Shown here: positions 2,954 through 64,000 of the stretch, piece by piece
Layout of the letters: each line of letters starts with the position of its first letter
How positions within the stretch are numbered: position 1 is the stretch's first letter
DNA from: Patiriisocius marinistellae
GTDB lineage: Bacteria; Bacteroidota; Bacteroidia; Flavobacteriales; Flavobacteriaceae
Direction of reading: 5' to 3'
DNA: 64,000 nucleotides
Assembly: GCF_009014635.1 (NCBI RefSeq)
Contig: NZ_BKCF01000001.1
Coordinates: 62,001-126,000, forward strand
Notes under the pieces: model-generated
The model's input: the letters and a program-made list of their open reading frames with translations, nothing else
Database searches by the model: none
What the model was told of the DNA's origin: nothing
Made by a program: the position numbers and the translations under genes

Positions 2954-3037
2954 CTTCGGAAATGAGCTGTTCATCTTTGATATTGCTATAAAAATAGCAT
3001 CAAACTAGATATTACAAATGCATGGGAATTTCCGAAG
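2954..3037. repeat. Inverted pair of the CTTCGGAAAT motif with inner hairpin
   Basis: The two arms are perfect 10-base complements, 64 bases apart. The interior can fold by itself. The same arrangement recurs at 14232-14392 and, with one mismatch, at 32555-32683. Confidence 0.6.
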
Positions 3038-3150
3038 TAAAAATAGAAAAAATCATCCCAAAACTGTAGTTGATTTTATAATGAGTTGTTCACATTTAGA
3101 AAATGAAAATATTCAATTAATACGAAATTAATAATTTTGTTTTAAAGCAA

Positions 3151-3187
3151 AAAAAAGCACAGTTTAATAGTTTTAAACTGTGCTTTT
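3151..3187 (-). terminator. Rho-independent terminator of the first DUF2383 gene
   Basis: A stem of about 13 bp (AAGCACAGTTTAA with its complement) is followed on the minus strand by a run of T, just after the stop codon at 3205. Confidence 0.85.
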
Positions 3188-3204
3188 ATATACGTATTGT
3201 AAAA

Positions 3205-3660
3205 TTATTCTTTTCCAGCCCAAGCATCAAGTGATCTTGCACTTGCTAGCGCTTCTTGAATACTACTCACTTGTTTTTGAATTAGCTTTTGCGTTGTTGG
3301 CGCCAATGTAGCTTCTTTTAAAATCTCCTGGTACTCTGCTACTGCAGCTTCTTCTCCACGAACGACCTCTTCTAACATAGCTTTATTATCAGTGCCAGAA
3401 AAAGTGTCTTTAATACTCATCCATGTGCGGTGCGCATCTCCTTTTAAACTAGTCCCCTTATCAACGTCTCCACCAACTCCCTTAATTTCTGCTTTTAAGG
3501 AATGTCCAAAATCGTAGCGATTTTGAGCTTGAGATTGAAAATAAGATTTTAACTGCGTTCCTTCTACAAGTTCAGCTGCTTTTTTATATCCTGCTTCAGC
3601 ATCATAATTTTTAGTCAGCAATTCGTTTAATTGATTGGTTAATTTTTTTACATTATCCAT
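3205..3660 (-). CDS. PA2169 family four-helix-bundle protein (DUF2383)
   Basis: A 151-residue protein with a ferritin-like helical-bundle pattern: NELLTKNYDAEAGYKKAAEL near the N terminus, then QNRYDFGHSLKAEI and GDAHRTWMSIKD. I place the start at ATG 3660 (MDNVKKL) because the longer open frame adds a hydrophobic, non-homologous stretch, and the neighbouring paralogue aligns only from here. Family members are small stress-associated cytosolic proteins; their biochemical activity is not established. It is one of two adjacent paralogues, each with its own promoter and terminator. Upstream lie four TTAAC repeats (3758-3793), which suggests shared control. Confidence 0.88.
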   Translation of the reverse strand: MDNVKKLTNQLNELLTKNYDAEAGYKKAAELVEGTQLKSYFQSQAQNRYDFGHSLKAEIKGVGGDVDKGTSLKGDAHRTWMSIKDTFSGTDNKAMLEEVVRGEEAAVAEYQEILKEATLAPTTQKLIQKQVSSIQEALASARSLDAWAGKE

Positions 3661-3721
3661 AGTTTCTTTTTTTAGTTTGAGACATTTTTCACTTGTGAAG
3701 AGCTGCCTCTTTATTACATTA

Positions 3722-3752
3722 TAAATATACAGTTGAAATAAACAATAAAAAA
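3722..3752 (-). promoter_or_regulatory. Putative promoter of the first DUF2383 gene
   Basis: On the minus strand TTTT, a 19-base spacer and TATATTTA resemble the Bacteroidetes -33/-7 pair (TTTG, TAnnTTTG). It lies just downstream of the TTAAC array. Confidence 0.45.
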
Positions 3753-3757
3753 TCACT

Positions 3758-3793: not shown

Positions 3794-3805
3794 GCATCTA
3801 TAAAT

Positions 3806-3840: not shown

Positions 3841-3873
3841 ATTGATTAACTTTATGTGATTGATGTTTGAAAT

Positions 3874-4439: not shown

Positions 4440-4441
4440 AA

Positions 4442-6638: not shown

Positions 6639-6648
6639 CTTCGGAAAT
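6639..6648 (+). repeat. CTTCGGAAAT motif copy
   Basis: A single intergenic copy between rimM and trmN6. See the window-wide finding. Confidence 0.6.
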
Positions 6649-14231: not shown

Positions 14232-14392
14232 CTTCGGAAATTCTAAGGCTGATCCTTATTCTATTGTTTGAAACAAATGTTTATAATCTATTTAGAAAAG
14301 AATATTATTAAGATAGGGATTACAAAAAACTAAAATTTAAACTGATATTTTTTATTGTCTAAATATTTAAATCAAAAGCCACATTTCCGAAG
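14232..14392. repeat. Intergenic inverted pair of CTTCGGAAAT
   Basis: The gene-free stretch 14095-14416 holds the mrp promoter plus CTTCGGAAAT at 14232-14241 and its complement at 14383-14392. The interior has a palindrome TTGTTTGAAACAA and weaker pairing. No open frame or known RNA recognised. Confidence 0.55.
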
Positions 14393-16159: not shown

Positions 16160-17221
16160 ATGATGCAACGCAAAACAATTTTAGTCGCTCCCTTAAATTG
16201 GGGTCTTGGTCACGCTACGCGATGCATTCCCATTATTAACGAACTTATCATTCACGGTTTTAAGGTTATTGTTGCTGGAGATGGGGCAGCACTATTGTTA
16301 TTGCAAAAGGAATTTCCGAAGTTAGAACACATTGAGCTTCCTTCTTATAACATTACGTATCCTAGGAAGGGTAATAAATTTAGATGGAATTTATTATTAA
16401 AAGTTCCGCATATTTTAAAAACTATTGCTGCTGAAAAAAGGCGAGTGTCAAAAATTGTTGAGGAGTATAATATTAAAGGTATTATAAGCGACAATCGCTG
16501 GGGAGTTATTAGTAAAAAAGTACCTTCTGTTTTTGTAACACACCAGTTACATGTTTTAAGTGGTAGTACTACATCAATTACGAGCAAATTACATCAAAAT
16601 ATTATTAGAAAATTTACGGAGTGTTGGATTCCAGATTTTAAGGGGCCAAGAAACTTAAGTGGGAAATTGGGGCATATTAATGATCTAGATTTTCCTGTTA
16701 AATATATTGGTACGCTTAGTAGATTAAGACAAGAAGAAATCACCAAAAATTATGATATTCTTATTTTACTTTCAGGTCCAGAACCTCAACGAACGATGCT
16801 AGAAAAACGTTTATTAGCGGAATTTAAAGATGATGCACGAAATATTTTATTAGTGAGAGGTGTTGTCGAAAATGAAGAAACTGTTAGTTATTTTGGGAAT
16901 ATAAAAATCATCAATTATTTAAAGACTGATGCATTAAGCCAAGCTATTAACGAAAGCGAATTAGTTGTGGCGCGCTCAGGCTATACAACAATTATGGACC
17001 TTGCCGCACTTGAAAAAAAGTGTTTCTTCATCCCAACACCAGGGCAATATGAACAAAAATATTTAGCAAAAAGATTAAAAGAAAAAGGTATTGTTGCCTC
17101 ATGTAAGCAAAGAAGTTTTACAAAGAAAAAACTTTTAAGTGTTACCTTATATTCTGGGCTCTCAAAAGAGAAGCATACTCAGGACTATGGAAAACTATTT
17201 AGCCTTTTCCATAGTAAATGA
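16160..17221 (+). CDS. Glycosyltransferase, MurG/GT28-like
   Basis: A 353-residue protein with an N-terminal PLNWGLGHATRCIPI (residues 11-25), the nucleotide-sugar glycosyltransferase fold seen in MurG-like enzymes, and a C-terminal donor-site stretch VARSGYTTIMDLAAL followed by FIPTPGQYEQ. It is not MurG itself; the acceptor is unknown, probably an envelope lipid or glycan. Its 3' end overlaps the convergent histidine-kinase gene by 27 bases. Confidence 0.82.
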   Translation: MMQRKTILVAPLNWGLGHATRCIPIINELIIHGFKVIVAGDGAALLLLQKEFPKLEHIELPSYNITYPRKGNKFRWNLLLKVPHILKTIAAEKRRVSKIVEEYNIKGIISDNRWGVISKKVPSVFVTHQLHVLSGSTTSITSKLHQNIIRKFTECWIPDFKGPRNLSGKLGHINDLDFPVKYIGTLSRLRQEEITKNYDILILLSGPEPQRTMLEKRLLAEFKDDARNILLVRGVVENEETVSYFGNIKIINYLKTDALSQAINESELVVARSGYTTIMDLAALEKKCFFIPTPGQYEQKYLAKRLKEKGIVASCKQRSFTKKKLLSVTLYSGLSKEKHTQDYGKLFSLFHSK

Positions 17222-21078: not shown

Positions 21079-21316
21079 AATTAAAGGTTTAGTTAAAATG
21101 CAATATCGGAAACTGACAACTTAAAATTTTGAAAATTAGACAATACGCTTATTTATAAGATAAAAAACCGCAAAATGTTGATATACATTATTTTATAAAA
21201 TTTAGAATACATATAAATACTCAGTCCTTTCAATAGCTTAAAAATTTGAAAACAATAACATTTTTAAATTCTACAAAACCAGATATTTTTATATTGCTTA
21301 TTTTTGATACATATTA

Positions 21317-21326
21317 CTTCGGAAAT
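21317..21326 (+). repeat. CTTCGGAAAT motif copy before a start codon
   Basis: Ends 6 bases before ATG 21333, in the position normally used by a ribosome-binding site. Confidence 0.55.
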
Positions 21327-21332
21327 ATTAAT

Positions 21333-22307
21333 ATGTCCATACCCTCTATTTTTGAAATTAAAAACGCAGATGATTTTGAAGCTGCCGCGCTTGAAACATT
21401 TAGACATCAATACAGCACTATCGATGTATACCAAAGGTTTTGTAATTACCTCAATATAAAATCGGAAACAGTAAAAAAAGTTTCAGAAATTCCGTTTTTG
21501 CCAATTGAATTTTTTAAATCCCACCAGCTCATTTCCGAAGTTAATACTACCGAAAAAATATTTTTAAGTAGTGGGACAACGGGTTCAATTACTAGTAAAC
21601 ACCATGTTGCAAATATTGCGCTTTATGAAGAAAGCTTTTTAAAAGGTTTTGAGCTTGCTTATGGTGCTATTCAACAATATACTATACTCGCTCTTTTACC
21701 GGCATATTTAGAGCGTGAAGGGTCTTCTCTCGTATATATGGTGGATACGCTAATTAAAAAAAGTAAAAATTCAAAAAGTGGTTTTTATCTCCATAATCTT
21801 ACTGATCTAGCCTCAACTTTAATTGAACAAGAAAAAAAAGGAAAGAAAACAATATTACTTGGCGTTTCGTACGCGCTTTTAGATTTGATTGAAATGCAAA
21901 AATTTCAACTCAAACACACTATTGTTATGGAAACAGGTGGTATGAAAGGGCGTAGAAAAGAAATGATAAAACAAGAATTGCATAAAGTACTTACTGCTGG
22001 CTTTGGTGTTTCAAAAATACACAGTGAATATGGTATGACAGAGCTTTTATCTCAAGCATATTCAATTGGAAAAGGGATTTTTAATTGTCCGCCGTGGATG
22101 CAAATATTAACTCGTGACACGGAAGACCCACTAACTTTAATTGAAAACAAAACAGGTGGAATAAATGTAATCGACCTCGCTAATTATCATTCCTGCTCCT
22201 TTATCGCAACACAAGATTTAGGTAAAAAATTTAAGGATGGAAGTTTTGAAATTTTAGGTAGATTTGACTCAAGTGATATTAGAGGTTGTAATTTAATGGT
22301 ACTGTAA
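21333..22307 (+). CDS. LuxE/PaaK-like acyl-protein synthetase or acyltransferase
   Basis: A 324-residue member of the acyl-adenylate ligase-like LuxE group. SSGTTGS (about residues 77-83) is the phosphate-binding loop, METGGMKGRRKE and SEYGMTELLSQAY are the later core motifs. I start at ATG 21333 (MSIPSIFEIKN), since the longer frame to 21246 adds a hydrophobic stretch unlike the family. It likely activates a carboxylic acid and passes it on; substrate unknown. Its TAA is followed immediately by the ATG of the next gene, so the three genes to 23862 form an operon. Confidence 0.8.
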   Translation: MSIPSIFEIKNADDFEAAALETFRHQYSTIDVYQRFCNYLNIKSETVKKVSEIPFLPIEFFKSHQLISEVNTTEKIFLSSGTTGSITSKHHVANIALYEESFLKGFELAYGAIQQYTILALLPAYLEREGSSLVYMVDTLIKKSKNSKSGFYLHNLTDLASTLIEQEKKGKKTILLGVSYALLDLIEMQKFQLKHTIVMETGGMKGRRKEMIKQELHKVLTAGFGVSKIHSEYGMTELLSQAYSIGKGIFNCPPWMQILTRDTEDPLTLIENKTGGINVIDLANYHSCSFIATQDLGKKFKDGSFEILGRFDSSDIRGCNLMVL

Positions 22308-24017: not shown

Positions 24018-25361
24018 TTATAAAGTCAATAAATTCTTTGGGTCGGGTTTATCACCTCCATCCTTGGTAACTCGTATAACAAAATAATTTTTCTTTCCTC
24101 TTTGCAATAACACAAAAGCACCGTTGATCAAATCTGTTTCGGTTATTTTGTAGCTGTCTTTTACTTTCTCTTTGTTTACCGAAATTGAGTTTTCTTTCAA
24201 TGCACGCCTTGCTTCACCGTTTGATTTTAAGAATCCTGTTTTTTCGGCAAGCGCACTAATAATATCGAGTCCGTTTTTGATGTCTTCCCTTGTAACTTCA
24301 GCTTGAGGTACGCCTTCAAAGATATCAAGAAATGTTTCCGAATCTAATTTTTTCAAATCGGCAGACGTTGATTTCCCGAATAATATTTCCGAAGCCGCTA
24401 CCGCCTTTTCATATTCCTCTTCATTATGGACCGTTGTGGTTACTTCTTGCGCTAGTCTTTTTTGTAACGCACGCACGTGGGGTGCTTTTTCATGAGCTGT
24501 AATAATACTCTCAATTGTTGCTTTGTCTAAGAATGTAAAAATTTTAATATACTTAGCAGCATCTTCATCACTAGTGTTCAACCAGTACTGATAAAATTTG
24601 TATGGCGAAGTCCTTTTTGGATCTAACCACACGTTACCACCCTCACTTTTACCAAATTTACTTCCGTCACTCTTTGTAATTAACGGACAAGTTAAGGCAT
24701 ATCCTTTTCCGCCGCCAATACGACGAATCATCTCTGTTCCCGTGGTAATATTTCCCCACTGGTCACTTCCTCCCATTTGTAGAGTACAGTCATGATTTTT
24801 ATAAAGGTGTAAAAAATCATACCCCTGCACCATCTGGTAGGTAAACTCAGTAAAGGACATTCCATCAACATTCTCTCCTGTCAATCTATTCTTTACACTA
24901 TCCTTCGCCATCATATAATTTACAGTAATATGTTTACCCACATCACGTATAAAATCTAAGAAAGAAAACTCCTTCATCCAGTCGTAGTTATTTACTAATA
25001 CGGCTGCGTTCTTAGTTTCGGGAGCAAAATCTAAAAACTGTGATAGCTGTTTACGCACACATTCTTGATTATGACGTAAGGTTTTTTCATCAAGAAAATT
25101 ACGCTCAGTTGATTTTCCAGAAGGATCACCAATCATTCCTGTGGCTCCTCCAACTAATGCATAAGGTTTGTGCCCACTGCGCTGAAAAAACGACAATATC
25201 ATTATAGGTACTAAATTACCTATATGTAATGAATCTGCCGTAGGATCAAACCCTATATAGGCGCTTCGCATTTTTACTAGTAAGTGCGCTTCTGTGTCTG
25301 GCATCACGTCGTGTACCATCCCTCTCCATTGTAATTCTTCAACAAAATTTTGTAACTGCAT
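24018..25361 (-). CDS. tyrS: Tyrosyl-tRNA synthetase
   Basis: Class I synthetase of 447 residues, full length. The HIGH-type motif is HIGNL (about residue 46), the KMSKS-type motif is KFGKS (about 237), and the C-terminal S4-like RNA-binding domain runs from about residue 375 ([19 protein letters not shown]). The [11 protein letters not shown] stretch shows the tyrosine pocket. Single gene. Confidence 0.98.
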
Positions 25362-26981: not shown

Positions 26982-28322
26982 TTATCTATTAAACGTAAGT
27001 CTTTCCCCAACAGAATGTTCTGTTAAAACACCATTATCATATACTAAATTACCATTAACAAACGTATGTGTAATTCTAGACCTAAATGTACTTCCCTCAA
27101 AAGGAGACCACTCACATTTATAGGCAGTATTCTCTTTTGTAACAGTCCAAGGAGCGTTAGGGTTTATCAAAACTAAATCTGCTTTGTAACCCTTTCTAAT
27201 ATAACCACGGTCTTTAATCTCAAACAAGATGGCTGGATTATGCGCCATTTTCTGCACTAATTTTTCAACGGTCACAAAGCCTTTATGGTGCATTTCAAAT
27301 AATGCCTCTACAGCATGTTGCACTAGAGGTCCTCCGCTAGGTGCTTTTGTATATATATTATTTTTTTCTTCAATAGTGTGAGGTGCGTGGTCTGTTGCTA
27401 TAACGTCAATACGATCATCGTTAAGTGCTTTCCATAAACCTTTTTTATCAGCCGCTGTTTTTACTGCGGGATTCCATTTTATCTTTGTGCCTTTTACTGC
27501 ATAGTCTTCATCAGTAAACCATAAATGGTGTACACAAACCTCGGCTGTAATTTTTTTATCTTTTAAGGGTATTTTATTACTAAAAAGTGCTGTTTCCTTT
27601 GCTGTTGACAAATGAAAAACGTGTAATCTTGCACCCGTTTTCTTTGCTAATTCAATAGCTCTTGAGGAAGAAATATAGCATGCTTCTTCACTACGTATAT
27701 TAGGATGTTCACTAATAGGAATATCTTCTCCATATTTTGCGAGTGCTTTCTCCATATTAGCTTTGATAGTTGCTTCATCCTCACAATGTGCAGAAATCAA
27801 CAAATCTGTCTTACTAAAAATACTCTCAAGAGTGTTCAAATCATCCACGAGCATATCTCCAGTCGATGATCCTAAAAACAATTTAAGTCCAGCTACTTTT
27901 GTTTTATCTATTTTAAGAATTTCATTTAAGTTAGTGTTTGTTCCACCAAACATGAATGAATAATTTACAAAGCTATCTTTTGAAGCAGTAGTGAATTTCT
28001 CCTCTAGTAATTCAACAGTTGTAGCTTGAGGAACTGTATTTGGCATTTCTATAAAAGTTGTAATTCCTCCAGCAGCAGCAGCACGTGACTCTGTAAATAT
28101 AGTAGCTTTATGAGTTAAACCAGGCTCTCTAAAATGCACTTGATCGTCAATCATTCCCGGGATTAAATAACTATCATCTGCGTCTATAACCTTTGTTTCT
28201 GCAGATTTTACACTAATGCTCTCTGAAATTTCGGCAATACGGTCACCTTCTATTAAGACGTCACCCTTAAATATCTTGCCTTCGTTAACAATGTTTGCGT
28301 TTTTTATTAAATAATTACTCAT
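26982..28322 (-). CDS. pyrC: Dihydroorotase
   Basis: A 446-residue amidohydrolase that closes carbamoyl-aspartate to dihydroorotate in pyrimidine synthesis. Metal ligands appear in DQVHFREPG (H63 and neighbours), SAHCEDEAT, VFHLSTAKE, and ATDHAPHT (catalytic Asp). The length and PGMIDDQVHFREPG fit the class I dihydroorotase/allantoinase branch. The start overlaps the glycosyltransferase stop by one base. Confidence 0.93.
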   Translation of the reverse strand: MSNYLIKNANIVNEGKIFKGDVLIEGDRIAEISESISVKSAETKVIDADDSYLIPGMIDDQVHFREPGLTHKATIFTESRAAAAGGITTFIEMPNTVPQATTVELLEEKFTTASKDSFVNYSFMFGGTNTNLNEILKIDKTKVAGLKLFLGSSTGDMLVDDLNTLESIFSKTDLLISAHCEDEATIKANMEKALAKYGEDIPISEHPNIRSEEACYISSSRAIELAKKTGARLHVFHLSTAKETALFSNKIPLKDKKITAEVCVHHLWFTDEDYAVKGTKIKWNPAVKTAADKKGLWKALNDDRIDVIATDHAPHTIEEKNNIYTKAPSGGPLVQHAVEALFEMHHKGFVTVEKLVQKMAHNPAILFEIKDRGYIRKGYKADLVLINPNAPWTVTKENTAYKCEWSPFEGSTFRSRITHTFVNGNLVYDNGVLTEHSVGERLTFNR

Positions 28323-29053
28323 TAGATTTCTAAGCGATTAAAGCTATTTTTTAATTTCATTCTTAAAACCCCAAAAATGGCTTCGGAAATTATTCCTGAA
28401 CTCATTTTTGATTCTCCCTTTGTCCTATCTGTAAAAACGACAGGAACTTCTCTTATTTTAAATTTACTTAAGTAAGCTTTATATTTCATTTCAATCTGAA
28501 ATGCATACCCAACAAATTTTATTTTATCTAAATTAATTTTTGATAACACCTCATTTCGGTAACAAATAAAACCCGCAGTGGTATCATATATATCCATTCC
28601 TGTTACAAATTGAACGTATTTTGATGCTCCCCAAGACATTAACACCCTACTCATAGGCCAGTTTACAACATTCACACCTGTGACATAACGGGATCCAATT
28701 GCAACATCAAATCCATCTTTATCACAAGCATTATATAACCTTATGAGATCATTAGGGTTATGAGAGAAGTCTGCATCCATCTCAAATATGTATGCATATT
28801 CTTTTTCAAGGGCCCATTTAAAGCCTGCAATATATGCTGTCCCTAATCCAAGTTTTCCCTTTCGCTCTAATATGAAGAGTTTATCTGGGAATACTAACTG
28901 CAAATTTTTTACTAAATCTGCAGTTCCATCAGGCGAATTATCATCAACAACTAGGATATCAAAACTACGCTGCAATGAAAATACATTGCGAATGAGTCGC
29001 TCTATGTTTTCAATTTCATTGTAGGTAGGTATGACCACCAAGGCATTTGGCAT
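28322..29053 (-). CDS. Polyprenol-phosphate mannosyltransferase-like GT2
   Basis: A 243-residue family 2 glycosyltransferase. VVIPTYNEIENI (residues 5-16), VVDDNSPDGTADL and EMDADFSHNP (the DxD metal site) match polyprenyl-monophosphomannose/dolichyl-phosphate synthases. No C-terminal membrane domain, so a soluble enzyme acting at the inner membrane. It makes a lipid-linked sugar for periplasmic glycosylation (family knowledge). Coupled to pyrC. Confidence 0.9.
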   Translation of the reverse strand: MPNALVVIPTYNEIENIERLIRNVFSLQRSFDILVVDDNSPDGTADLVKNLQLVFPDKLFILERKGKLGLGTAYIAGFKWALEKEYAYIFEMDADFSHNPNDLIRLYNACDKDGFDVAIGSRYVTGVNVVNWPMSRVLMSWGASKYVQFVTGMDIYDTTAGFICYRNEVLSKINLDKIKFVGYAFQIEMKYKAYLSKFKIREVPVVFTDRTKGESKMSSGIISEAIFGVLRMKLKNSFNRLEI

Positions 29054-32554: not shown

Positions 32555-32683
32555 CTTCAGAAATATTAAGTCATCAACCACTTTACTGGCTCATTAAACT
32601 TACGCTTTTGTATAATCAAAATACAATACTGGCTTTTATGAAGTATTGTCTAATTATTAGTAATATGTGGTACATTTCCGAAG
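32555..32683. repeat. Intergenic inverted pair of CTTCGGAAAT-type motif with inner hairpin
   Basis: The gene-free stretch 32377-32708 holds the pckA promoter and CTTCAGAAAT at 32555 (one mismatch) with ATTTCCGAAG at 32674-32683. Between them is a perfect 8-bp hairpin ACAATACT / AGTATTGT (32623-32649). Nothing else recognised. Confidence 0.55.
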
Positions 32684-36014: not shown

Positions 36015-39000
36015 CTAGCCCACTATGTTTACAATCTTACCAGGAACAACAATTACTTTCTTCGGCTCGCGACCATTTAAGTATTTTTGAGTATCCTCAC
36101 TTGCCATTACGGCAGCTTCAATTTCGTCTTTACTTAAATCTAGAGGTAGCTCCATAGTAAATTTCATCTTTCCATTAAACGAAATAGGATAATTCTTACT
36201 ACTCTCTACTAAATGACTTGCTTCAAACTTAGGAAATGGCGCTGTTGAAATACTTGTTGTATGCCCCAATTTACTCCAAAGTTCCTCAGCAATATGTGGT
36301 GCGTAAGGAGAAACTAAAATAGCTAGTGGCTCAAGAATTTCTTTCGCATTACATTTTTGTGCCGTCAACTCATTTGCCGCAATCATAAATGTAGAAACCG
36401 ATGTATTAAAACTAAAGTTCTCAATATCTTCTTCTACCTTTTTTATTGTTTTGTGTAATGTTTTCAACGCATCTTTTGAAGGTGCCTCGTCGCTTACACT
36501 AAAACTTTCATCAGCACCGCCGTGGTATAATTTCCATAGTTTTTTTAAGAAAGAATGCACACCACTTAGTCCGGCGGTGTTCCATGGCTTTGCCTGCTCT
36601 AAAGGCCCCAAAAACATTTCATACAATCGTAAACTATCTGCCCCATATTCATCACATATCTGGTCTGGATTGACCACATTGTATTTTGACTTAGACATTT
36701 TCTCGACTTCGCGAATTACTTTAAATGTGCCGTCTTCTTCAGTTATAAACTCAGCATCTTTAAATTCTTCTCTCCATATCCGAAGTGCATCCACATCAAC
36801 CTCATCTGAGGTATTTACTAATGAAACATCTATATGGATTTTTTGTGTAGTAAAATTAATTAAGCTTAAATGTTCTTCTGCTGATGATTTATCTTTATTT
36901 AACCATTCAAAAATTGGCTTACAAGCAGTTCTAAATTGTGTTTCAAAATCTTTGCTAAATTCTTCGTTCTTAATATAATTAGACGAAACAAAAATCTCTT
37001 TTGGATATTTGCTTAAATCAACTATTCCAGTTGGATTAATACTAATCATTTCTGGAAGAATTTTATATACAAAAGCACTCGTTCCCAAAATCATCCCTTG
37101 GTTTATCAACTTCTTAAAAGGCTCATCGACTTTTACAAACCCTCTGTCTTTCATAAACTTTACCCAGAAACGGCTGTACAACAAATGGCCTGTTGCGTGT
37201 TCGCTACCGCCTATATACAAGTCAACATTCTCCCAATAGTTGAGTGCATCTTCGCTAGCAAATTCACCATCGCGCATAGCGTCTTCCATGTATCTAAAAA
37301 AGTACCAGCTACTTCCTGCCCACCCTGGCATTGTATTTAATTCTAGAGAAAATACAGTTTCATTATCAATTAACTGATTACTGACTACTGCGCATTTTTT
37401 TGTGTCCCATGCCCATACATCTGCACGGCCTAATGGTGGTTCGCCTTCTTCTGTGGGGAGGTATTTTTCTACTTCGGGTAATCTAATTGGTAAGTGTTCT
37501 TTTGCTATCATTTGCGGCATTCCGTCCACATAATACACTGGAAACGGCTCTCCCCAATAACGTTGTCTTGAAAATACAGCGTCACGTAATCTATAATTTG
37601 TCTTGCCTTCTCCCGCACCTAGTTTTTCTAACTCATAAATAGCAAGTTTTACAGCTTTTTTATATTTCAATCCATTTAAGAAATCACTATTTGCGATTAC
37701 AGTTCCTTCTTTATCTGCATGTGCTGCTTCACTAATATCAACTCCTTCAAATACATTAGGAATTGGGATTCCAAACTTAGTTGCAAAATCATAATCACGC
37801 TGGTCACCACATGGTACAGCCATAACGGCTCCTGTTCCATATCCTGCAAGTACATAATCTCCTATCCAAACTGGAATAGGTTCTTTTGTAAAAGGATGCT
37901 CTGCATACGCTCCTGTAAATACACCGCTAATTGTTTTAACATCTGCCATACGCTCACGCTCACTTCGTTTTGAAGTAGCCTCCACATATTCATTTACAGC
38001 GGCTTTTTGATCATCAGTCGTGATTTTTGAAACTAACTCGTGTTCTGGAGCTAGCGTCATAAATGAGACTCCAAAAATAGTATCGGGTCTTGTAGTAAAT
38101 ACTGGGATTTTTTCGCTGTGTTCTTTTAAATCAAATGAAATCATCGCACCTACAGATTTTCCAATCCAATTGCGCTGTGTTTCTTTTAATGATTCTGGCC
38201 AATCGATGGTTTCTAACCCTTGCAGCAAACGCTCCGCGTAGGCTGAAATTCGCATGCTCCATTGTGTCATTTTTTTACGAACCACGGTATGCCCACCACG
38301 TTCTGACACCCCATTGACAATTTCGTCGTTAGCTAACACTGTTCCTAGTGCTGGACACCAATTTACTTCTGTTTCGGCTAAGTAGGTTAGCCTGTATTTC
38401 AACAAAATTTGTTGTTGTTCCGTTTCAGAAAAACTGTTCCACATTTCCGCAGAAAAAACATTAATGTTTTCATCGCTTATTGCGTTAATTTTTGCATTTC
38501 CATCTTTTTTAAAAATTGAAATCAATGTGGCAACATCTTCAGCCTTATCACTATCCTTGTTGTACCAACTATTAAAAAGTTGGATAAATATCCATTGCGT
38601 CCATTTGTAATATTCTGGATTTGATGTACGAACCTCGCGTGACCAATCGAACGAAAACCCAATTTTATCAAGCTGTTTTCTATACCCTTCAATTTTATTT
38701 CCAGCTTTGTCTACACCTCCTTCAATATTTACTTTAGTAGTATCTGCCGGGTGCTGTCCAGTTTGTATTGCATACTGCTCAGCTGGCAACCCAAAACTAT
38801 CGTATCCCTGTGGATGCAATACATTAAAACCTTTATGACGCTTGTATCTCGCATAAATATCACTCGCAATATAACCCAGCGGATGCCCTACGTGTAATCC
38901 CGCACCTGAAGGATAAGGAAACATATCTAGCACATAATACTTAGGTTTTTCACTAGTATTTGAAGCTTTAAATGTTTGGTTTTTTTCCCAGTATTGTTGC

Positions 39001-39038
39001 CACTTGGCTTCTATATCGTTGAAATGATATTTACTCAT
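36015..39038 (-). CDS. leuS: Leucyl-tRNA synthetase
   Basis: Class I synthetase of 1007 residues; HIGH-type HVGHPLGY (about residues 48-55) and KMSKS in EKMSKSKYNVVNPD (about 782-795). E. coli LeuRS has about 860 residues. The excess is in two insertions: one near residues 160-215 (DKAEDVATLISIFKKDG) and one near 660-770, between the zinc/editing region and KMSKS (KYPKEIFVSSNYIKNEEF). The editing domain (TRPDTIFGVSF) is present. Bacteroidetes LeuRS are often long, so the insertions may be lineage-typical. Confidence 0.97.
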   Translation of the reverse strand: MSKYHFNDIEAKWQQYWEKNQTFKASNTSEKPKYYVLDMFPYPSGAGLHVGHPLGYIASDIYARYKRHKGFNVLHPQGYDSFGLPAEQYAIQTGQHPADTTKVNIEGGVDKAGNKIEGYRKQLDKIGFSFDWSREVRTSNPEYYKWTQWIFIQLFNSWYNKDSDKAEDVATLISIFKKDGNAKINAISDENINVFSAEMWNSFSETEQQQILLKYRLTYLAETEVNWCPALGTVLANDEIVNGVSERGGHTVVRKKMTQWSMRISAYAERLLQGLETIDWPESLKETQRNWIGKSVGAMISFDLKEHSEKIPVFTTRPDTIFGVSFMTLAPEHELVSKITTDDQKAAVNEYVEATSKRSERERMADVKTISGVFTGAYAEHPFTKEPIPVWIGDYVLAGYGTGAVMAVPCGDQRDYDFATKFGIPIPNVFEGVDISEAAHADKEGTVIANSDFLNGLKYKKAVKLAIYELEKLGAGEGKTNYRLRDAVFSRQRYWGEPFPVYYVDGMPQMIAKEHLPIRLPEVEKYLPTEEGEPPLGRADVWAWDTKKCAVVSNQLIDNETVFSLELNTMPGWAGSSWYFFRYMEDAMRDGEFASEDALNYWENVDLYIGGSEHATGHLLYSRFWVKFMKDRGFVKVDEPFKKLINQGMILGTSAFVYKILPEMISINPTGIVDLSKYPKEIFVSSNYIKNEEFSKDFETQFRTACKPIFEWLNKDKSSAEEHLSLINFTTQKIHIDVSLVNTSDEVDVDALRIWREEFKDAEFITEEDGTFKVIREVEKMSKSKYNVVNPDQICDEYGADSLRLYEMFLGPLEQAKPWNTAGLSGVHSFLKKLWKLYHGGADESFSVSDEAPSKDALKTLHKTIKKVEEDIENFSFNTSVSTFMIAANELTAQKCNAKEILEPLAILVSPYAPHIAEELWSKLGHTTSISTAPFPKFEASHLVESSKNYPISFNGKMKFTMELPLDLSKDEIEAAVMASEDTQKYLNGREPKKVIVVPGKIVNIVG

Positions 39039-43918: not shown

Positions 43919-43928
43919 CTTCGGAAAT
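43919..43928 (+). repeat. CTTCGGAAAT motif copy before tag
   Basis: Ends 16 bases before the tag start codon. Confidence 0.55.
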
Positions 43929-44580: not shown

Positions 44581-46308
44581 TTAGTACTTAAGTATTTTTT
44601 TAGTCACTTTTCCGAAGTCACCAATAAACGTTGCAAACAATGTTCCGTTCCAATCATCTTGTAGGTCTAAAATAATAGTCCCATTCCCGTTTTCAAGAGT
44701 ATTACTATATAATTCCTGCCCAAGAATATTTGTTATAGTAACTGTTATGTTTCCTCTAAGGTTACCCATTTTAAAGGTAACATCTCCATTAGTGGGATTA
44801 GGATATGGACCTGCAATCGCATTTTTTAGAAAATTATTTGTAGAAAGCTGCCCTACTTGAACGGTCCAAAAACCCTCTGGAGCAACAATTGGCCTTGCCA
44901 AAGATTTACCAGAATTTGATGTCCCAGAAATATAGTATTCCACATTATTTGCTACAACAGGAATGTCTGCCGTCCAAATATCATTTCCTGCATTAGTCAT
45001 CATTGTTTGGGTAAAATCTACAGCTCCTTCTTCTCTCCAAAAAATAGTTCCGTTTGCAATACCACTATTGTGTTTTATAGAAGCTTCAATTGTTATGGTC
45101 GTATTTTCAACAGATTCAGTAATTGGCTGATGTACAATCCACAATGGGTCTGCAACTCCAATAGTATGGGTGATACAATGAATTGCTCCAACTAATGAAA
45201 TTAAATTTTCTCCTGGATTGTCAACATCAATCCCTACAATATTGTAACCAGGCATCATTTCTTGCCATAATGCTAATGCTGGTGTATCTACATTTTCTCT
45301 ATATGTAGGCACTAAAATTGTTTTATTTAAGAACAATGCATTAGTATATGTTCTATAAGACCCGTTGCTATCAGGATATGCGCCACTTGTACTTGGCGGT
45401 GCAGGAATACGTTTAATTTTATATGGTGTGCCAAAAGGTGTTTGAAAGTTGTCTAATATGTAATCAATATTCTCATTAATCTGAGGACCATCTGCAACAC
45501 CCTCTGGATAACTACTCAACACTAATGTTTCTTCATCAAGCAATTTCATGTGCATATCAATATGATTGATAACATCAAACGGCATAGGGGTCATCTTTAT
45601 ATAGTTTTGAATCCCCATATAATCTCCCATAATTTGATCTATTTGAGCTTCGGTTTTTGGTGATACACCGTATGGATTTCCAGGTTCGTTTTCTTCTAAA
45701 ATAAGCTCAGAAGCAAAAGCGTTTCCAAGACCGTCACTCATATAATTTCCACCAGTATTTACTAAATCGTTTGTACCTGTATTTGTAATATAAATAGGTA
45801 ATCCCAATAATGCTGCATGTGCTTCTGGCACTACATTATCATTTGGTCTTGGCCTATTGTAAATCCAATCTGTCAATCCCCGCTCGCCTACTTCGTTTTC
45901 ATAAACTGTATTTCCAGCGTAGTCTCTAATCCAGATACTATCCCAATCTGCATCCATAAAGATTACATTTGTCAAATCTACTCCTCCGCTTGTTAAATAA
46001 TTTGCAACGTTATTTTGATTTTGAGTTGTAATAATTACTTTACATTCTTCTACTCCAGCAGCGACAATTTGACGTAAAATTCCTTGAAAATTGGACTCCC
46101 AAGTCACCACTAAATATTCAACTTCTTCCCACTCAGCAGCAGCACGCACTGGCACCGCTGGCGGAGGTGTCATTCTAGTTGTAGAAAATTGAAAATCTGC
46201 TACAAGCCCTTGTTCTGCTTCGGAAATGTAACTTGGTAATTGACCAAATGTGATGTTTGAAATAAGTAATATTAAAGCAACTGGAAGTAGTTGTATAATC
46301 TTTTTCAT
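44581..46308 (-). CDS. T9SS-secreted peptidylarginine/agmatine deiminase-family protein (PPAD-like)
   Basis: A 575-residue secreted enzyme. Signal peptide about residues 1-22; catalytic domain to about 405 with D129 (IWIRDY), R152 and R154 (YNRPRP), GGNYMSDG near 187, H249 and D251 (NHIDMHM), N323 and C378 (AIHCITHTIG). An Ig-like domain follows (about 410-490), then a type A T9SS sorting domain (GPYPNPTNGDV, ending KKILKY). Porphyromonas PPAD has the same order, and its reported catalytic set includes Asp130, Arg152, Arg154, His236, Asp238, Asn297 and Cys351. The usual label agmatine deiminase may be misleading: a secreted citrullinating enzyme is likely. Not shown. Confidence 0.85.
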   Translation of the reverse strand: MKKIIQLLPVALILLISNITFGQLPSYISEAEQGLVADFQFSTTRMTPPPAVPVRAAAEWEEVEYLVVTWESNFQGILRQIVAAGVEECKVIITTQNQNNVANYLTSGGVDLTNVIFMDADWDSIWIRDYAGNTVYENEVGERGLTDWIYNRPRPNDNVVPEAHAALLGLPIYITNTGTNDLVNTGGNYMSDGLGNAFASELILEENEPGNPYGVSPKTEAQIDQIMGDYMGIQNYIKMTPMPFDVINHIDMHMKLLDEETLVLSSYPEGVADGPQINENIDYILDNFQTPFGTPYKIKRIPAPPSTSGAYPDSNGSYRTYTNALFLNKTILVPTYRENVDTPALALWQEMMPGYNIVGIDVDNPGENLISLVGAIHCITHTIGVADPLWIVHQPITESVENTTITIEASIKHNSGIANGTIFWREEGAVDFTQTMMTNAGNDIWTADIPVVANNVEYYISGTSNSGKSLARPIVAPEGFWTVQVGQLSTNNFLKNAIAGPYPNPTNGDVTFKMGNLRGNITVTITNILGQELYSNTLENGNGTIILDLQDDWNGTLFATFIGDFGKVTKKILKY

Positions 46309-46394: not shown

Positions 46395-47039
46395 CTACTC
46401 ACCATTGAGATAAGTCAAAAATTCTTTTCTTGAAATTTCATACGCACCCAAGGATTCTAAATGCTCATTATAGACTTGGCAATCTATAATTTTGTAGTCT
46501 TTTTCAATCAAGTATTGCGCTAAATAATAAAACCCCACTTTTGAAGCGTCACTTACTCTACTAAACATACTCTCCCCGCAAAATACCTTTTTGTCCTTTA
46601 AATCCACCCCATAAAGTCCGCCCACTAATTCATCATCCTGCCACACTTCAATCGACATTGCCTTACCATTTTTGTGTAAATTAATATATGCATTTTTCAT
46701 AGCATTTGTAATCCAAGTACCACCTTGACCATCTCTTTTTATTGTTGCGCAATTTTTTATGACTTCGGGAAAAGCTGTATTAAAAGTGACTTTAAAAACT
46801 TCCTTTTTAATAGTTCTCTTAAGGCTTTTTGTAATTCTCATTTCCGAAGGAAGCAACACCATTCTTGGGTCTGGTGACCACCACAATATAGGCTGGTTAT
46901 CTTCGTACCAAGGAAAGATTCCAGAGTTATAAGCCAACAATAATCGCTCCATGGTTAAGTCTCCACCCACGGCTAGAATACCGTCTTCGTTTGCTTGACT
47001 TGGGTGTGGAAACCAAAATATGTTATCAATTAAATACAT
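46395..47039 (-). CDS. aat: Leucyl/phenylalanyl-tRNA-protein transferase
   Basis: A 214-residue enzyme that attaches Leu or Phe to N-terminal Arg/Lys of proteins, marking them for ClpAP (N-end rule). FPHPSQANEDGILAVGGDL, GIFPWYEDNQPILWWSPDPR and GGLYGVDL are the Aat signatures. Single gene, separated from its neighbour by a terminator. Confidence 0.96.
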   Translation of the reverse strand: MYLIDNIFWFPHPSQANEDGILAVGGDLTMERLLLAYNSGIFPWYEDNQPILWWSPDPRMVLLPSEMRITKSLKRTIKKEVFKVTFNTAFPEVIKNCATIKRDGQGGTWITNAMKNAYINLHKNGKAMSIEVWQDDELVGGLYGVDLKDKKVFCGESMFSRVSDASKVGFYYLAQYLIEKDYKIIDCQVYNEHLESLGAYEISRKEFLTYLNGE

Positions 47040-51605: not shown

Positions 51606-51615
51606 CTTCGGAAAT
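51606..51615 (+). repeat. CTTCGGAAAT motif copy
   Basis: Intergenic, 17 bases after the stop codon of the Rieske-like gene. Confidence 0.55.
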
Positions 51616-56195: not shown

Positions 56196-56762
56196 TTATT
56201 TTTTATTGAGCAGTTTGTTAATGTGTTTTACTGCAAATTCAAAACGTTGTAATTTTGAACCTTTCAGTGTAATATATGGGAGGTCGTAGTTGATTAATTG
56301 ATTTTCAAACATACGAAACATATTTTCTCTTTCATCGGGTCTATCTCGCAATTTGTCGAATTCCCAAGGAACATCAATATCTGTTAAAAAATAAAAGTCA
56401 TAGGTATGTGTTTTAAATGCTTCGGAAATTTCCGAAGGACAAAAACCATCGTTATAATATTTAGAATAGACCTCAATTTCTAATAAATTGGTATCACAAA
56501 AGAGTACGTTATTTGATTTTAAAACCAATTTATTTTCTGAAGTTATTTGACCTTTAGCAATAGGCAATAAATCATTTTTAACTATTGTTTCCTTATACTT
56601 CTCCCATTTTGCTTCTAAGTAAGTGCGCATATATTCTGGCACCCATTGGGTTTTAAAGTGTTTAGCAAGCTGTTTTGACAAAGTTGTTTTGCCTGTAGAC
56701 TCAGGACCAAACATTACAATTTTCAAGCAATTACTTGGTCGCTGTTTAAGTGTTTCTTCCAT
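56196..56762 (-). CDS. NadR-like P-loop kinase
   Basis: A 188-residue cytosolic ATPase with Walker A GPESTGKT (residues 19-26) and the NadR-like stretch WVPEYMRTYLEAKWEKY and FCDTNLLEIEVYSKYY. The nearest group is the nicotinamide-riboside kinase domain of NadR, so it probably phosphorylates a vitamin-like substrate to trap it after uptake by the PnuC-like neighbour (40-base overlap). Which vitamin is open: nicotinamide riboside by family, thiamine by neighbourhood. It holds the 18-base palindrome at 56420. Confidence 0.82.
   Translation of the reverse strand: MEETLKQRPSNCLKIVMFGPESTGKTTLSKQLAKHFKTQWVPEYMRTYLEAKWEKYKETIVKNDLLPIAKGQITSENKLVLKSNNVLFCDTNLLEIEVYSKYYNDGFCPSEISEAFKTHTYDFYFLTDIDVPWEFDKLRDRPDERENMFRMFENQLINYDLPYITLKGSKLQRFEFAVKHINKLLNKK
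56420..56437. repeat. 18-base perfect palindrome from two overlapping CTTCGGAAAT copies
   Basis: CTTCGGAAATTTCCGAAG inside the NadR-like gene reads the same on both strands; each half is a copy of the repeated motif. Confidence 0.75.
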
Positions 56763-60619: not shown

Positions 60620-60629
60620 CTTCGGAAAT
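60620..60629 (+). repeat. CTTCGGAAAT motif copy after ahcY
   Basis: Intergenic, followed by ATTAAATA. Confidence 0.55.
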
Positions 60630-61044: not shown

Positions 61045-61121
61045 GATGGTTGGCTTAAACCACTAAAATAGTAATTTCTGAACTAACACATACATATAAT
61101 AACCTCTTCAAAAAATAGCTT

Positions 61122-61790
61122 TCAATCACATTCAACAACATACTTGTCAATTATAGTTTGAGTAATAGGTTTTAACGTTTTTCCATTTTCTGGATGGATT
61201 CCGTGGATTGAAAAATAAGAAAGTTCCTTATTGGTTTTATCATACCAAATAACCGGTTTGTTATTTTTAAAAAATATTGTTTCATCACAAACTTGAATTT
61301 TTTTAAAATTTTCAAGCTTTTTCTCATTAAAAGAAACTTCTAAACGTGCACCAGAACATGCTGTTTTCTCATAATGATTATCTTTCCAGACCATACATTC
61401 TAATCTCGTATTCCCGAAGAAATTCCAACATAATGAAACTGTTAATATTGTTACCAAAACAAACAACAAAATAGCCGATTTATTCGGTGCCTTTTGTTTG
61501 GGCTCCAAGTCATTATTCAATTGTTTTTTGTTGGCGCCATTATGGCTTTTCATATATAATTCGAAATCATCATAACCAATATATTGAGAGAGTGCTTTTA
61601 ATACTTCGGGTTTTGGCGTTCCTTCTCCTTTTGAATATCGTTTTAAGGATTTAGCCGAAATAGGACATCGATACAATTCCATTAATTGCATTTCTACATG
61701 TTCCGCTTGACCATTTAATGATTTATTTAAAGTTTCGGCTGCTGCCTTTGCCAAAGCTTCGTTAATAAGATTTTTTGCTATTTGTTCCAT
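61122..61790 (-). CDS. Membrane protein with N-terminal helix-turn-helix-like domain
   Basis: A 222-residue protein. Residues 35-80 (CPISAKSLKRYSKGEGTPKP, then LSQYIGYDDFELYM) resemble the helical, HTH-like domain found at the start of many Bacteroidetes proteins. One hydrophobic helix (about 104-124) follows, then a periplasmic part with two or three Cys (ECMVW, ACSGAR, VCDETIF). It could transmit a signal to the cytosolic domain, but DNA binding is not shown. Divergent from the TPR kinase cluster. Confidence 0.65.
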   Translation of the reverse strand: MEQIAKNLINEALAKAAAETLNKSLNGQAEHVEMQLMELYRCPISAKSLKRYSKGEGTPKPEVLKALSQYIGYDDFELYMKSHNGANKKQLNNDLEPKQKAPNKSAILLFVLVTILTVSLCWNFFGNTRLECMVWKDNHYEKTACSGARLEVSFNEKKLENFKKIQVCDETIFFKNNKPVIWYDKTNKELSYFSIHGIHPENGKTLKPITQTIIDKYVVECD

Positions 61791-62131
61791 ACTGATTTAA
61801 AAGTACAGATTATGGACAAATTCTGGACAGCCTTTTTGGACATTCTTTTCCAATTTCTATCCAAAGACTAGCCTCCAATTCTTCCGTATTTAGCACTGTG
61901 AAAATTATATCTCACCTATAAAAATTAAAAAGGTGTAACCCTATTTTCATTTTCTGAAATTTTTCTTGCGACCCGCAAATTGCCACCGGGAAGTAGCATT
62001 AGTAGTCGCAGGATGATTTCAACTTCCCACAAATTGAGTTTTCACTCATTCACGAAATGTTACAAAACAACTAAAGCACAAGCTACGCTTTTACAGCATT
62101 TCTATTGTTCAATTTTTAAATTTTATACACT
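61791..62131 (+). other. Intergenic region with several inverted repeats
   Basis: No gene seen in 341 bases. It shows TGCGAC (61967-61972) / GTCGCA (62005-62010), GGGAAGT (61988-61994) / ACTTCCC (62022-62028) and TGAGT..ACTCA soon after, mutually overlapping. A structured leader or small RNA is possible. Confidence 0.35.
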
Positions 62132-62278
62132 ATGAAAATTATATTTTCTATTTTAATTATGCTCATTCTAAACAGTAGTTTTATATCCTGTACCCCGCAA
62201 GCCATCGAAAACAATATAGACCCTCAAGAGACTGTAGGCGAGGATAGTAACGACAACGAGGATGAAACAGATGAATGA
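62132..62278 (+). CDS. Small acidic lipoprotein
   Basis: A 48-residue frame: hydrophobic signal (MKIIFSILIMLILNSSFISC) with lipobox FISC (Cys20), then an acidic, Asn-rich tail (EDSNDNEDETDE). It lies 51 bases before the TPR kinase on the same strand. The clear lipobox supports a real gene; function unknown, perhaps an accessory of the sensor. Confidence 0.6.
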   Translation: MKIIFSILIMLILNSSFISCTPQAIENNIDPQETVGEDSNDNEDETDE

Positions 62279-62329
62279 TTGTTAGTAATTAGGCTACAAC
62301 CTAGTTAAATCATTTTGTAATTTAGAGGG

Positions 62330-64000
62330 ATGAAAGACATTATTCTATCCCTCTATTTTATTTCTACAATATGCTTTTGCTCTATGAGTTATGGGCAATC
62401 AGATAGTATTTCTCATTATCAAAATCTCGCAAAACAACATAAAAAAAACATCCCATTGGCTATAGAATATTTGAATAAAGCCATGGAAATCTCAATACAA
62501 AATAAGCAAGACTCTTTATACCTAAATTCAATTTCCAGAAAGAGTACGCTCTTCGGAAATTCTAAAGATTATAAAAATGCTATTGAACAAGCAACTTTCC
62601 TAAATGTTGAAGCAAACCAATTAAATGATATTTTTCATATTGCTCGCTCTCATGATAAATTAGGTCGATACTATAGTAAAACAGGAGATTTAACATTAGC
62701 TGTTTCAAATTATCTCCAAGCCATTAGACCATACAAAACGATCAAAGACAGCCTTAAATTAAGCTATGTTTTTGAAAAGATCGCTAACATCCAAAATGAT
62801 CTAGGTGACTTTTTAGGTGCAGAAAAATCTGCTCTTGAAGGCCTTAAATATGCAAAACACAATCCGAAAGGCAATAGCGCCTGGCTTTATAATTGTTTAG
62901 GAAGAGCCTCCAAGGAGCAGTTTCAATTTGATGAAGCTTTAAGTTGGTATGATCGGGGTATATCCAGTACAAACAACCAAAAAATTATTGTTTCATTGAT
63001 ACAAAATCAAGCCGTTGTATTAATGAAACAGCAAAAATATAATGAAGCCCGAAAATTATTAACAGCATTGTTACAAGAATCTGAAGTTAAAAACAGCACC
63101 TATTTAACGTCCAGAATACTCGACAACCTAGGATATGCTAACTTTAAAATAGGAGAACCTAATGCATTGACCGAATTATTAGAAGCATATGCACTACGGC
63201 AAAAAGACGATGACAAAACCGGACTCTTTGCAAGCACTATACATCTCACGGAATATTACCAAGCAAAAGACAGAGAAAAATCTTTGGAATTTGCAAAAGA
63301 CGCTTTTAACCTGTCTAAAATTATTAATAGCCCAGAAGCCCAAATTGAAGCATTATCATATCTTATAGCACTAGAAACCCCAGAAAACACAAAACTTGCT
63401 GCTCTTAGTAGTTTACATCTTAGAGACAGTATAGCTATAGCAACATCAAAACAACGCACAGAGTATTTGAAATTCAAATATAAGACAGACGAAATCTCTC
63501 TTGAAAACAGTTTGTTATTAACCGAAAAGGCACAACAAGAAACTATTATTGCTGAAGAGAAAATCAAAAAGTACATCATAGGTTTTATATCTTTTATATT
63601 ATTTATTACCATAATTGCGCTTTATTATATTTTACGAGAACGTTATAAGAAACAACGTTTAAAAGAGCGCATTGCAACACAACAACATTTTTCTAAACGA
63701 ATCCATGACGAACTTGCCAGTGACATATTTAATATAATGGCTCAAATGGAACAAGCAAATATTCCTGTTGATTATGTGGATGCTTTAGAAAACATCTATG
63801 AACGAACGAGAGACATTAATAGAGAAACTATTTCAATAATTACTAATGAAGATTTCTCAACTACTTTATCAAATCTTATAGAAGGATATTTATCTGAAAA
63901 TGAACGATTAATTTTAAATGGAATTAACGAAGTGGATTGGACTAAAATTTCAGAAGAAAACAAACAGCATCTTAAAAGAATATTGCAAGAGTTGATGACT
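62330..64000 (+). CDS. TPR-containing sensor histidine kinase (C-terminal part outside window)
   Basis: 557 codons visible, open to the window edge. Signal peptide (about 1-22), periplasmic TPR array (about 30-360, e.g. LAIEYLNKAMEIS, LGRYYSKTGDLTLAVSNY, EALSWYDRGI), a coiled coil with one TM helix (about residues 420-440), then a cytosolic HisKA_3-type domain with the phospho-accepting His in KRIHDELASDIFN. The ATPase domain starts at the edge. This architecture is frequent in Flavobacteriaceae. The cognate regulator would lie beyond the window. Confidence 0.88.
   Translation, partial: MKDIILSLYFISTICFCSMSYGQSDSISHYQNLAKQHKKNIPLAIEYLNKAMEISIQNKQDSLYLNSISRKSTLFGNSKDYKNAIEQATFLNVEANQLNDIFHIARSHDKLGRYYSKTGDLTLAVSNYLQAIRPYKTIKDSLKLSYVFEKIANIQNDLGDFLGAEKSALEGLKYAKHNPKGNSAWLYNCLGRASKEQFQFDEALSWYDRGISSTNNQKIIVSLIQNQAVVLMKQQKYNEARKLLTALLQESEVKNSTYLTSRILDNLGYANFKIGEPNALTELLEAYALRQKDDDKTGLFASTIHLTEYYQAKDREKSLEFAKDAFNLSKIINSPEAQIEALSYLIALETPENTKLAALSSLHLRDSIAIATSKQRTEYLKFKYKTDEISLENSLLLTEKAQQETIIAEEKIKKYIIGFISFILFITIIALYYILRERYKKQRLKERIATQQHFSKRIHDELASDIFNIMAQMEQANIPVDYVDALENIYERTRDINRETISIITNEDFSTTLSNLIEGYLSENERLILNGINEVDWTKISEENKQHLKRILQELMT

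Follow-up and report, generated by a model that had tools for sequence, protein, structure and literature searches.

The stretch of DNA considered here, a window of 64,000 nucleotides from Patiriisocius marinistellae (contig NZ_BKCF01000001.1, positions 62,001 to 126,000), raises the question of why one ten-base word, CTTCGGAAAT, recurs in it so often. The original prediction had counted about 19 exact copies by hand against 0.1-0.2 expected from base composition and had proposed an uptake or architectural motif. All of these copies (19/19) were confirmed with their coordinates and strands, and 100 dinucleotide-preserving shuffles of the window gave a mean of 0.12 copies and at most 2. Our results suggest, with somewhat better than even confidence, that CTTCGGAAAT represents the dialect, in this genus, of a dispersed signal resembling DNA uptake sequences, with the core CTTCGGAA, which is present in part of the Flavobacteriaceae. 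The signal probably arose separately from the systems of Neisseria and Haemophilus, which use type IV pili, and is perhaps read as facing pairs. The fuller picture, an independent self-DNA code in part of the family with CTTCGGAA dialects, a pilus-free uptake machine and a facing-pair reading, is put forward tentatively, as a conjecture slightly more apt to fail than to hold.

The window lies within a genome of 3,338,299 bases in 30 contigs. The genome-wide excess and the enrichment over Markov models, by which the original prediction had proposed to check the motif, were both found. The whole genome contained 833 copies of CTTCGGAAAT (428 forward and 405 reverse), compared with 16 copies (4 forward and 12 reverse) of a reversed control, the motif letters in backward order. 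In a 464-kb sample, consisting of the window and twenty 20-kb stretches of the genome, 129 copies were found where Markov models of orders 0-3 expected 0.8-1.0; order 4 expected 4.2, and order 5, which was trained on sequence containing the motif itself, expected 18.9. No other 10-mer present 12 times or more in this sample had as high an order-3 score as CTTCGGAAAT. The density in P. marinistellae was about 1 site per 4 kb, and the counts per 20 kb were near Poisson (mean 5.5, variance 6.1).

The word is non-palindromic, and most of its one-letter variants were near background in the 464-kb sample. Six variants were enriched: CTTCTGAAAT (31 versus 2.4 expected), CTACGGAAAT (16 versus 0.9), CTTCGGAAAC (14 versus 0.4), CTTCGGAAAA (14 versus 1.1), CTGCGGAAAT (9 versus 0.8) and CTTCGGCAAT (8 versus 0.4). 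Several more, among them CTTAGGAAAT and CTTCAGAAAT, reached 2-3 times expectation. The flanks of the 129 copies showed a loose preference, TTn-CTTCGGAAAT-[AGT]TnA, with T at -3 in 87/129 and at -2 in 79/129; C stood right after the motif in 1/129, T in the second place of the 3' flank in 98/129 and A in the fourth in 82/129. Two further words, GCCGAAAT and TTTCTGAAAT, were over-represented in P. marinistellae, with 53 and 43 copies in genes versus 11.4 and 10.1 under synonymous shuffling. At most 250 bp from exact motif copies, TTTCTGAAAT was found 12 times in convergent order (a plus copy, then a minus copy), once in divergent order and 9 times on the same strand. Both words may be weak forms of the motif signal, since TTTCTGAAAT was mostly convergent with exact copies.

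Copies were located in genes and between genes in either orientation, as had been stated from the window. With a simple purpose-built gene finder, 72/129 copies of the 464-kb sample were genic, 40 along the gene direction and 32 opposite, and 57/129 (44%) were intergenic; intergenic DNA made up 9.3% of the bases. The claim that the copies share no reading frame needed correction, because the frame was not indifferent: the frame encoding Leu-Arg-Lys was used by 2/40 same-strand genic copies, an avoidance expected of a DNA-level signal obliged to tolerate coding. The intergenic copies occupied convergent, divergent and co-directional gaps roughly by gap length, which argues against most of them serving as promoters or terminators. 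An intrinsic terminator was likewise not indicated in the 464-kb sample, given the genic majority and the lack of concentration of intergenic copies in convergent gaps.

The arrangement of neighbouring copies provided a fresh and pointed clue to the way in which the word is read. Five facing pairs, in which a plus copy is followed by a minus copy, took up 10/19 copies in the window at spacings of 8 to 622 bp. The copies, placed relative to open reading frames (ORFs), are as follows:

2954..2963, plus strand: intergenic copy, convergent with 3028
3028..3037, minus strand: intergenic copy, convergent with 2954
6639..6648, plus strand: copy between ORFs of at least 150 aa
14232..14241, plus strand: intergenic copy, convergent with 14383
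14383..14392, minus strand: copy convergent with 14232; the aligned place in genome G001 is CTCCGGAAAT, one change
16312..16321, minus strand: copy within ORF 16160-17221
21317..21326, plus strand: copy within ORF 21246-22307, convergent with 21531
21531..21540, minus strand: copy within ORF 21246-22307, convergent with 21317
24385..24394, minus strand: copy within the gene of a class I tRNA synthetase (W and Y family); conserved exactly in G009, CTTCTGAAAT in G001 and G002
28381..28390, plus strand: copy within ORF 28322-29053; exact in G001 and G002, CTTCAGAAAT in G007
32674..32683, minus strand: copy between ORFs, upstream of PEP carboxykinase
43919..43928, plus strand: copy between ORFs of at least 150 aa
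46218..46227, plus strand: copy in ORF 44581-46308, convergent with 46840 (622 bp)
46840..46849, minus strand: copy in ORF 46395-47039, convergent with 46218
51606..51615, plus strand: copy between ORFs of at least 150 aa
56420..56429, plus strand: copy in ORF 56196-56762, overlapping 56428 by 2 bases to form a perfect 18-bp palindrome
56428..56437, minus strand: copy forming the second arm of the 18-bp palindrome with 56420
60620..60629, plus strand: copy between ORFs of at least 150 aa
62551..62560, plus strand: copy outside ORFs of at least 150 aa

A larger sample of the genome (902 kb) held 243 copies, 136 plus and 107 minus. Among the 58 neighbours less than 1 kb apart, 43 were convergent, 9 divergent and 6 same-strand. 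When all pairs were counted, 29 convergent pairs lay less than 250 bp apart versus 4.1 expected. A second excess was found at 600-1000 bp (15 versus 6.5), and convergent pairs of 250-600 bp showed none (4 versus 5.8). Pairs of 60-1500 bp were scarce in both other classes, with 15 versus about 47 expected for the same strand and 13 versus about 24 for divergent order. In the 464-kb sample, the 26 close convergent pairs included 13 with both copies genic and 12 with both intergenic, the gene/gene pairs being 13 convergent, 0 divergent and 1 tandem; 77/129 copies stood outside any convergent pair of less than 1 kb. Variants at most 250 bp from exact copies gave 21 convergent, 2 divergent and 6 same-strand pairs versus 5.2 expected per inverse class, a sum over six of the eight variants tested (150 copies) that were picked for enrichment. 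A comparison of 485 8-mers of similar abundance (150-350 copies) in an 864-kb sample of P. marinistellae DNA revealed three extremes, CTTCGGAA and two words overlapping the motif; CTTCGGAA formed 40 convergent and 8 divergent pairs, and the next-highest inverse-class count of any word was 13.

The facing order recurred in other genomes. In a pool of six, to which G001 contributed few copies, CTTCGGAA pairs of 30-600 bp were convergent in 91 cases versus 35.7 expected and divergent in 25 versus 35.7. Same-strand pairs of 30-100 bp were raised in this pool (18 versus 8.9), G049 alone had no convergent excess under 250 bp, and close pairs of the 10-mer numbered 0 in the small sample of G009 and 1 in that of G002. 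No clear helical phasing of the pair spacing, which would be a sign of protein-bridged loops, was found in the exact pairs of P. marinistellae (best value 4.85) or in other genomes (2.9), and its pooled-variant set was borderline (6.25, many periods having been tried). Of the pairs that were folded, three with a spacing of about 25 bp gave strong long hairpins (z -6.7, -10.0 and -4.0), and two longer-spaced pairs folded less strongly (z -2.5 and -1.6). Directional-uptake drive was considered as the cause of the facing pairs and was dropped by argument, as the partner would carry both alleles equally.

The excess in related genomes, which the original prediction had proposed to examine, was borne out in some of them. 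In a survey of 299 Flavobacteriaceae genomes from 236 genera, the 8-base core CTTCGGAA was enriched, at 3 times the reversed control or more, in 28/299 genomes and 19/236 genera with the strands near balance, and the strongest count was that of G288 (2678 versus 245); G001, of the same genus as P. marinistellae, had 434 and 431 copies by strand versus 55 and 65 for the control. Five of the 11 genomes of the same genus were motif-rich with 833, 605, 474, 345 and 239 copies, the last in a genome that is 59% complete, and six metagenome-assembled genomes (MAGs) of this genus (G003, G004, G006, G007, G008 and G010; 1.7-2.1 Mb) had 6-34 copies versus 9-18 for the control. In larger samples, where words with at least 8 copies were ranked, CTTCGGAA was the top over-represented 8-mer in G000, G001, G002, G250, G288, G022 and G049 and the second in G110; in small samples (18-40 kb) it ranked first in G293, second in G037, third in G009 and fifth in G276. 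A search of 29 named genomes showed enrichment in Salinimicrobium catena (1255 versus 298), Psychroserpens sp. SPM9 (958 versus 301) and Salinimicrobium sp. TH3 (688 versus 257), and counts below the control in Dokdonia sp. (17 versus 136), Polaribacter sp. WD7 (18 versus 76) and Cellulophaga fucicola (23 versus 112). In the rest of the order (127 genomes), the top ratio in genomes larger than 1 Mb was about 2.9 (G447), and several genomes of one family of the same order (f5) had ratios of 2-2.9. The upstream TT was mostly common to the genera and the 3' flanks differed by genus: AT and then [AGT]TnA in the genus of P. marinistellae, mostly A or G without AT elsewhere. One 20-kb stretch of G250 held 0 copies of CTTCGGAA versus a mean of 8.7 per stretch; a mobile island was considered there and rejected, as the stretch is a ribosomal-protein-operon region.

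Individual sites were compared by blast alignments of roughly 66-82% identity between the window and 80 kb each of G001, G009 and G002, three genomes of the same genus. These syntenic stretches held 13, 14 and 10 copies, respectively. The aligned places of the window copies were exact in 1/10 cases in G001, 1/8 in G009, 1/15 in G002 and 0/8 in the motif-poor MAG G007, and control 10-mers were identical at aligned places in 5.7-7.6% of cases. In the reverse comparison, 1/6 aligned copies was exact in the window for each of G001, G009 and G002. Because similar copy numbers were found at mostly different sites, the word appears to be kept at the genome level while single sites turn over. Four of the remaining copies of G001 and G009 were aligned with window places reading CTTCGGAAAA, and gain of the motif by point mutation is plausible.

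Matches to the competence proteins ComEC and DprA were present in the P. marinistellae genome. On contig C1, a 952-aa CarboxypepD-reg protein adjoins a 472-aa DUF5689 protein on one strand. Judged by domain only, this pair resembles RA0C_RS04915/RS04920, the gene pair described as essential for transformation of Riemerella anatipestifer in the available part of that report (PMC8459023). ComEC and DUF5689 were each found in 47/50 family genomes; ComEC was found in 266/299 genomes and in 27/28 of the motif-enriched ones, the exception being G211 (68% complete). As ComEC is nearly universal, its association with the motif across the family is uninformative. The complete genome G040 (100%) had no ComEC or DUF5689 match and a partial DprA, and its CTTCGGAA count was at background (4 versus 4.9); it perhaps represents a lineage that lost transformation. 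Its sister G265 showed mild enrichment (23 versus 8.4 in 180 kb), so the two genomes form a weak natural experiment. A search with PF00437, which covers the PilB/PilT/VirB11 ATPases, gave no match in the P. marinistellae genome. Matches exceeded the cut-off in 1/12 genomes searched (G265:C1:2481091-2482200) and stayed below it in 8 more. Pilus homologues were not detected in Riemerella by the authors of the work on it, as far as the available text goes.

The uptake half of the original prediction fits most of the properties measured in these genomes. The word is non-palindromic and strand-balanced, lies in and between genes in both orientations, and turns over at single sites; additionally, the genus dialects share a core and the closest inverted pairs form hairpins. 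On this reading, a surface or periplasmic receptor of the transformation machinery would prefer DNA carrying the word. The machinery would be of the Riemerella type, in which outer-membrane CarboxypepD-reg and DUF5689 proteins are followed by ComEC and then DprA/RecA; genes for CarboxypepD-reg, DUF5689, ComEC and DprA proteins were identified by domain, and their role in P. marinistellae is presumed. Alleles gaining the word would then be over-represented among incoming recombining fragments, and copies would build up by molecular drive, which is consistent with the observed turnover and with the minority of homologous places that are one change away. The genera would have drifted to different flanks while the core was retained, and the flank differences seen may correspond to differences in specificity. 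Finally, two facing copies, tens to a few hundred bp apart, may be a better substrate than one, which would explain the observed excess of convergent pairs.

The DNA uptake sequence (DUS) of the Neisseriaceae, GCCGTCTGAA and its dialects, is comparable in being a 10-12 bp non-palindromic word in very many copies. The flavobacterial word is unrelated to it in sequence and phylum and probably has a different receptor; in contrast to the DUS-bearing bacteria, no PilB/PilT-type ATPase was found in P. marinistellae, and facing pairs are favoured at spacings below 250 bp and, a second time, of 600-1000 bp. In the excerpts available, DUS dialects are described as surrounding a conserved core (PMC3630211), and close inverted DUS pairs as forming terminators in the Neisseriaceae (PMC2397512). 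The uptake signal sequence (USS) of the Pasteurellaceae, AAGTGCGGT, also differs from CTTCGGAAAT as a word. The USS shares AT-rich flanks with CTTCGGAAAT, and DNA uptake by Haemophilus is pilus-based. Like the USS, for which no orientation bias round the chromosome has been reported (PMC1939737, in part), the flavobacterial word is strand-balanced (428/405) and without clear replichore polarity. Hairpins are described for USS and DUS pairs in Haemophilus and Neisseria, and the P. marinistellae pairs about 25 bp apart form them likewise. According to the accessible part of one study (PMC7811141), uptake sequences are rare in strongly constrained genes, with which the empty ribosomal-protein stretch of G250 may agree. 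In the same study, Haemophilus pairs within 14 bp take either inverse order (69 -/+ and 40 +/-), and a second site less than 100 bp away brings no detectable gain in uptake. Facing order dominates in P. marinistellae, unlike in Haemophilus, and a reading by two facing sites is proposed because these Haemophilus pairs take both orders and double sites give no detectable gain. Such a two-site grammar would be new, having no description for uptake sequences in the literature consulted for comparison. The closest counterpart in machinery is the Riemerella transformation system, which consists of ComEC, DprA, ComF and an outer-membrane gene pair and which P. marinistellae matches, by domain only, in ComEC, DprA and the CarboxypepD-reg/DUF5689 pair. 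Riemerella columbina favours its own DNA, and the part of the paper available (PMC7965970) identifies no uptake word and lists A-rich k-mers by raw count only. The motif might bear on this preference.

To our knowledge, experimentally known uptake-sequence systems are confined to the Pasteurellaceae and Neisseriaceae, both of which use type IV pili. No uptake word for the Flavobacteriaceae or Bacteroidota was described in the literature searched, whose coverage excluded most subscription papers and all bioRxiv preprints and in which PMC7965970 was the one relevant paper among the matches listed, and a search for the 10-mer as a text string gave no motif of such kind by title among the matches listed. 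If true, the proposal would add a third case, in the Bacteroidota and with a different machine, and would allow a comparative test of selfish drive versus mate recognition; the word would also be a practical tag for transforming marine flavobacteria.

Several observations weigh against an uptake signal of this kind. Most genomes that bear the machinery lack the motif, and the six motif-poor MAGs of the same genus, with counts at or within about 2 times the control, all carry ComEC. Conversely, G211 is strongly enriched and is among the 33/299 genomes without a ComEC match. That the family is pilus-less is not certain, as one paper, in the portion available, names possible type IV pilus homologues in F. 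johnsoniae. Conservation at orthologous positions, another check named in the original prediction, was seen at few places: the 41 aligned places pooled comprised 3 exact, 5 one letter off and 33 at least two letters off or gapped. The counts of CTTCGGAA per 20 kb in G250 were over-dispersed (variance 19.3, mean 8.7), and under synonymous shuffling the reversed control was itself somewhat raised in the genes of G250 (38 versus 25.7). The large intergenic excess was found in P. marinistellae only, with 2-13% of CTTCGGAA copies intergenic in five other genomes. Same-strand CTTCGGAA pairs of 30-600 bp were not short in the six other genomes (76 versus 71.4), so the same-strand shortage is limited to P. 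marinistellae DNA. Moreover, uptake signals are not known to follow a facing-pair rule, and the rule could be a pointer to intracellular bridging.

The last point leads to the chief rival, an architectural or chromosome-maintenance site, in which an intracellular protein would bridge facing copies to organise or condense the chromosome and selection would maintain about one site per 4 kb. The facing pairs keep this half of the original prediction alive: the convergent order of 43/58 near neighbours, which also holds inside genes, its recurrence in the six-genome pool and the near-Poisson counts per 20 kb would all suit such a site. It is nevertheless judged unlikely, since more than half of the copies (77/129) lie outside convergent pairs of less than 1 kb, helical phasing was at best borderline, and dialects, site turnover and patchy spread (19/236 genera) would be unusual for a housekeeping site.

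The other analogue named from the window, a Chi-like site serving an AddAB/RecBCD-type enzyme as a recombination hotspot, is improbable. Chi of E. coli is a dispersed oriented word occurring about once per 4-5 kb, and CTTCGGAAAT is likewise non-palindromic, genome-wide and of similar density. Unlike Chi, it has no clear replichore polarity: by the sign of the GC skew, which served for the strand-bias check proposed earlier, 85 copies were leading and 89 lagging in the complete genome G250, and 74 versus 55 in P. marinistellae DNA, a mild lean. Chi also leaves the facing pairs unexplained, and 44% of the P. marinistellae copies are intergenic. Hardly to be expected, too, is a DNA methyltransferase or modification site with modified sites favoured, as proposed for HIP1 in cyanobacteria. 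A 10-bp non-palindromic word with graded flank preferences is unlike the usual methyltransferase sites, and some near-matches, one of them with an altered central base, were enriched and paired with exact copies in facing order, although a link to methyltransferases has been made for other words iterated throughout a genome (PMC4390886, in the part available).

The ends of a short mobile element are a very improbable source: the facing pairs of less than 250 bp look like terminal inverted repeats, but their interiors differ (by eye), half of the close pairs are in genes, no extended common flank was found, and a few genic sites aligned with relatives gap-free with no insertion seen. Codon or composition bias, for which the favouring of some of the six genic frames might speak, has practically no chance of generating the word, since 60 rounds of synonymous-codon shuffling gave 1.9 genic copies versus 73 observed (one copy being counted twice, in two overlapping genes) and 12 versus 10.3 for the reversed control, and 44% of the copies are intergenic. 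A single mobile repeat family and codon bias, the two explanations that the original prediction had said would undo it, thus did not hold. In the genes of five other genomes, CTTCGGAA was found 48-151 times versus 4.2-21.7 under the same shuffling.

Several minor observations were also made. The ORF at 44581-46308 of the window encodes a member of the Porphyromonas-type peptidyl-arginine deiminase family that carries a secretion sorting domain at its C terminus. The leucyl-tRNA synthetase gene at 36015-39038 was 74-75% identical to Dokdonia and Bizionia loci versus 72% to the same-genus Ulvibacter locus L161, a pattern hinting at gene transfer. The match in G265 was the single PilB/PilT/VirB11-type ATPase above the cut-off among the 12 genomes. 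A second dispersed word, CAAAAATGGC / AAATGCCATT...CATTTTTGA-like, was present in G250 (L047-L066), which belongs to the same GTDB genus as Salinimicrobium catena, and was strongly over-represented in 400 kb of that genome (CAAAAATG, 228 versus 45.7 expected). Finally, a GC-rich CGACTGCGCTCGA-like word had 2 copies in the AT-rich window, and the related words GCGCAGTCGA and CTGCGCTCGA recurred in G001 (L021-L025).

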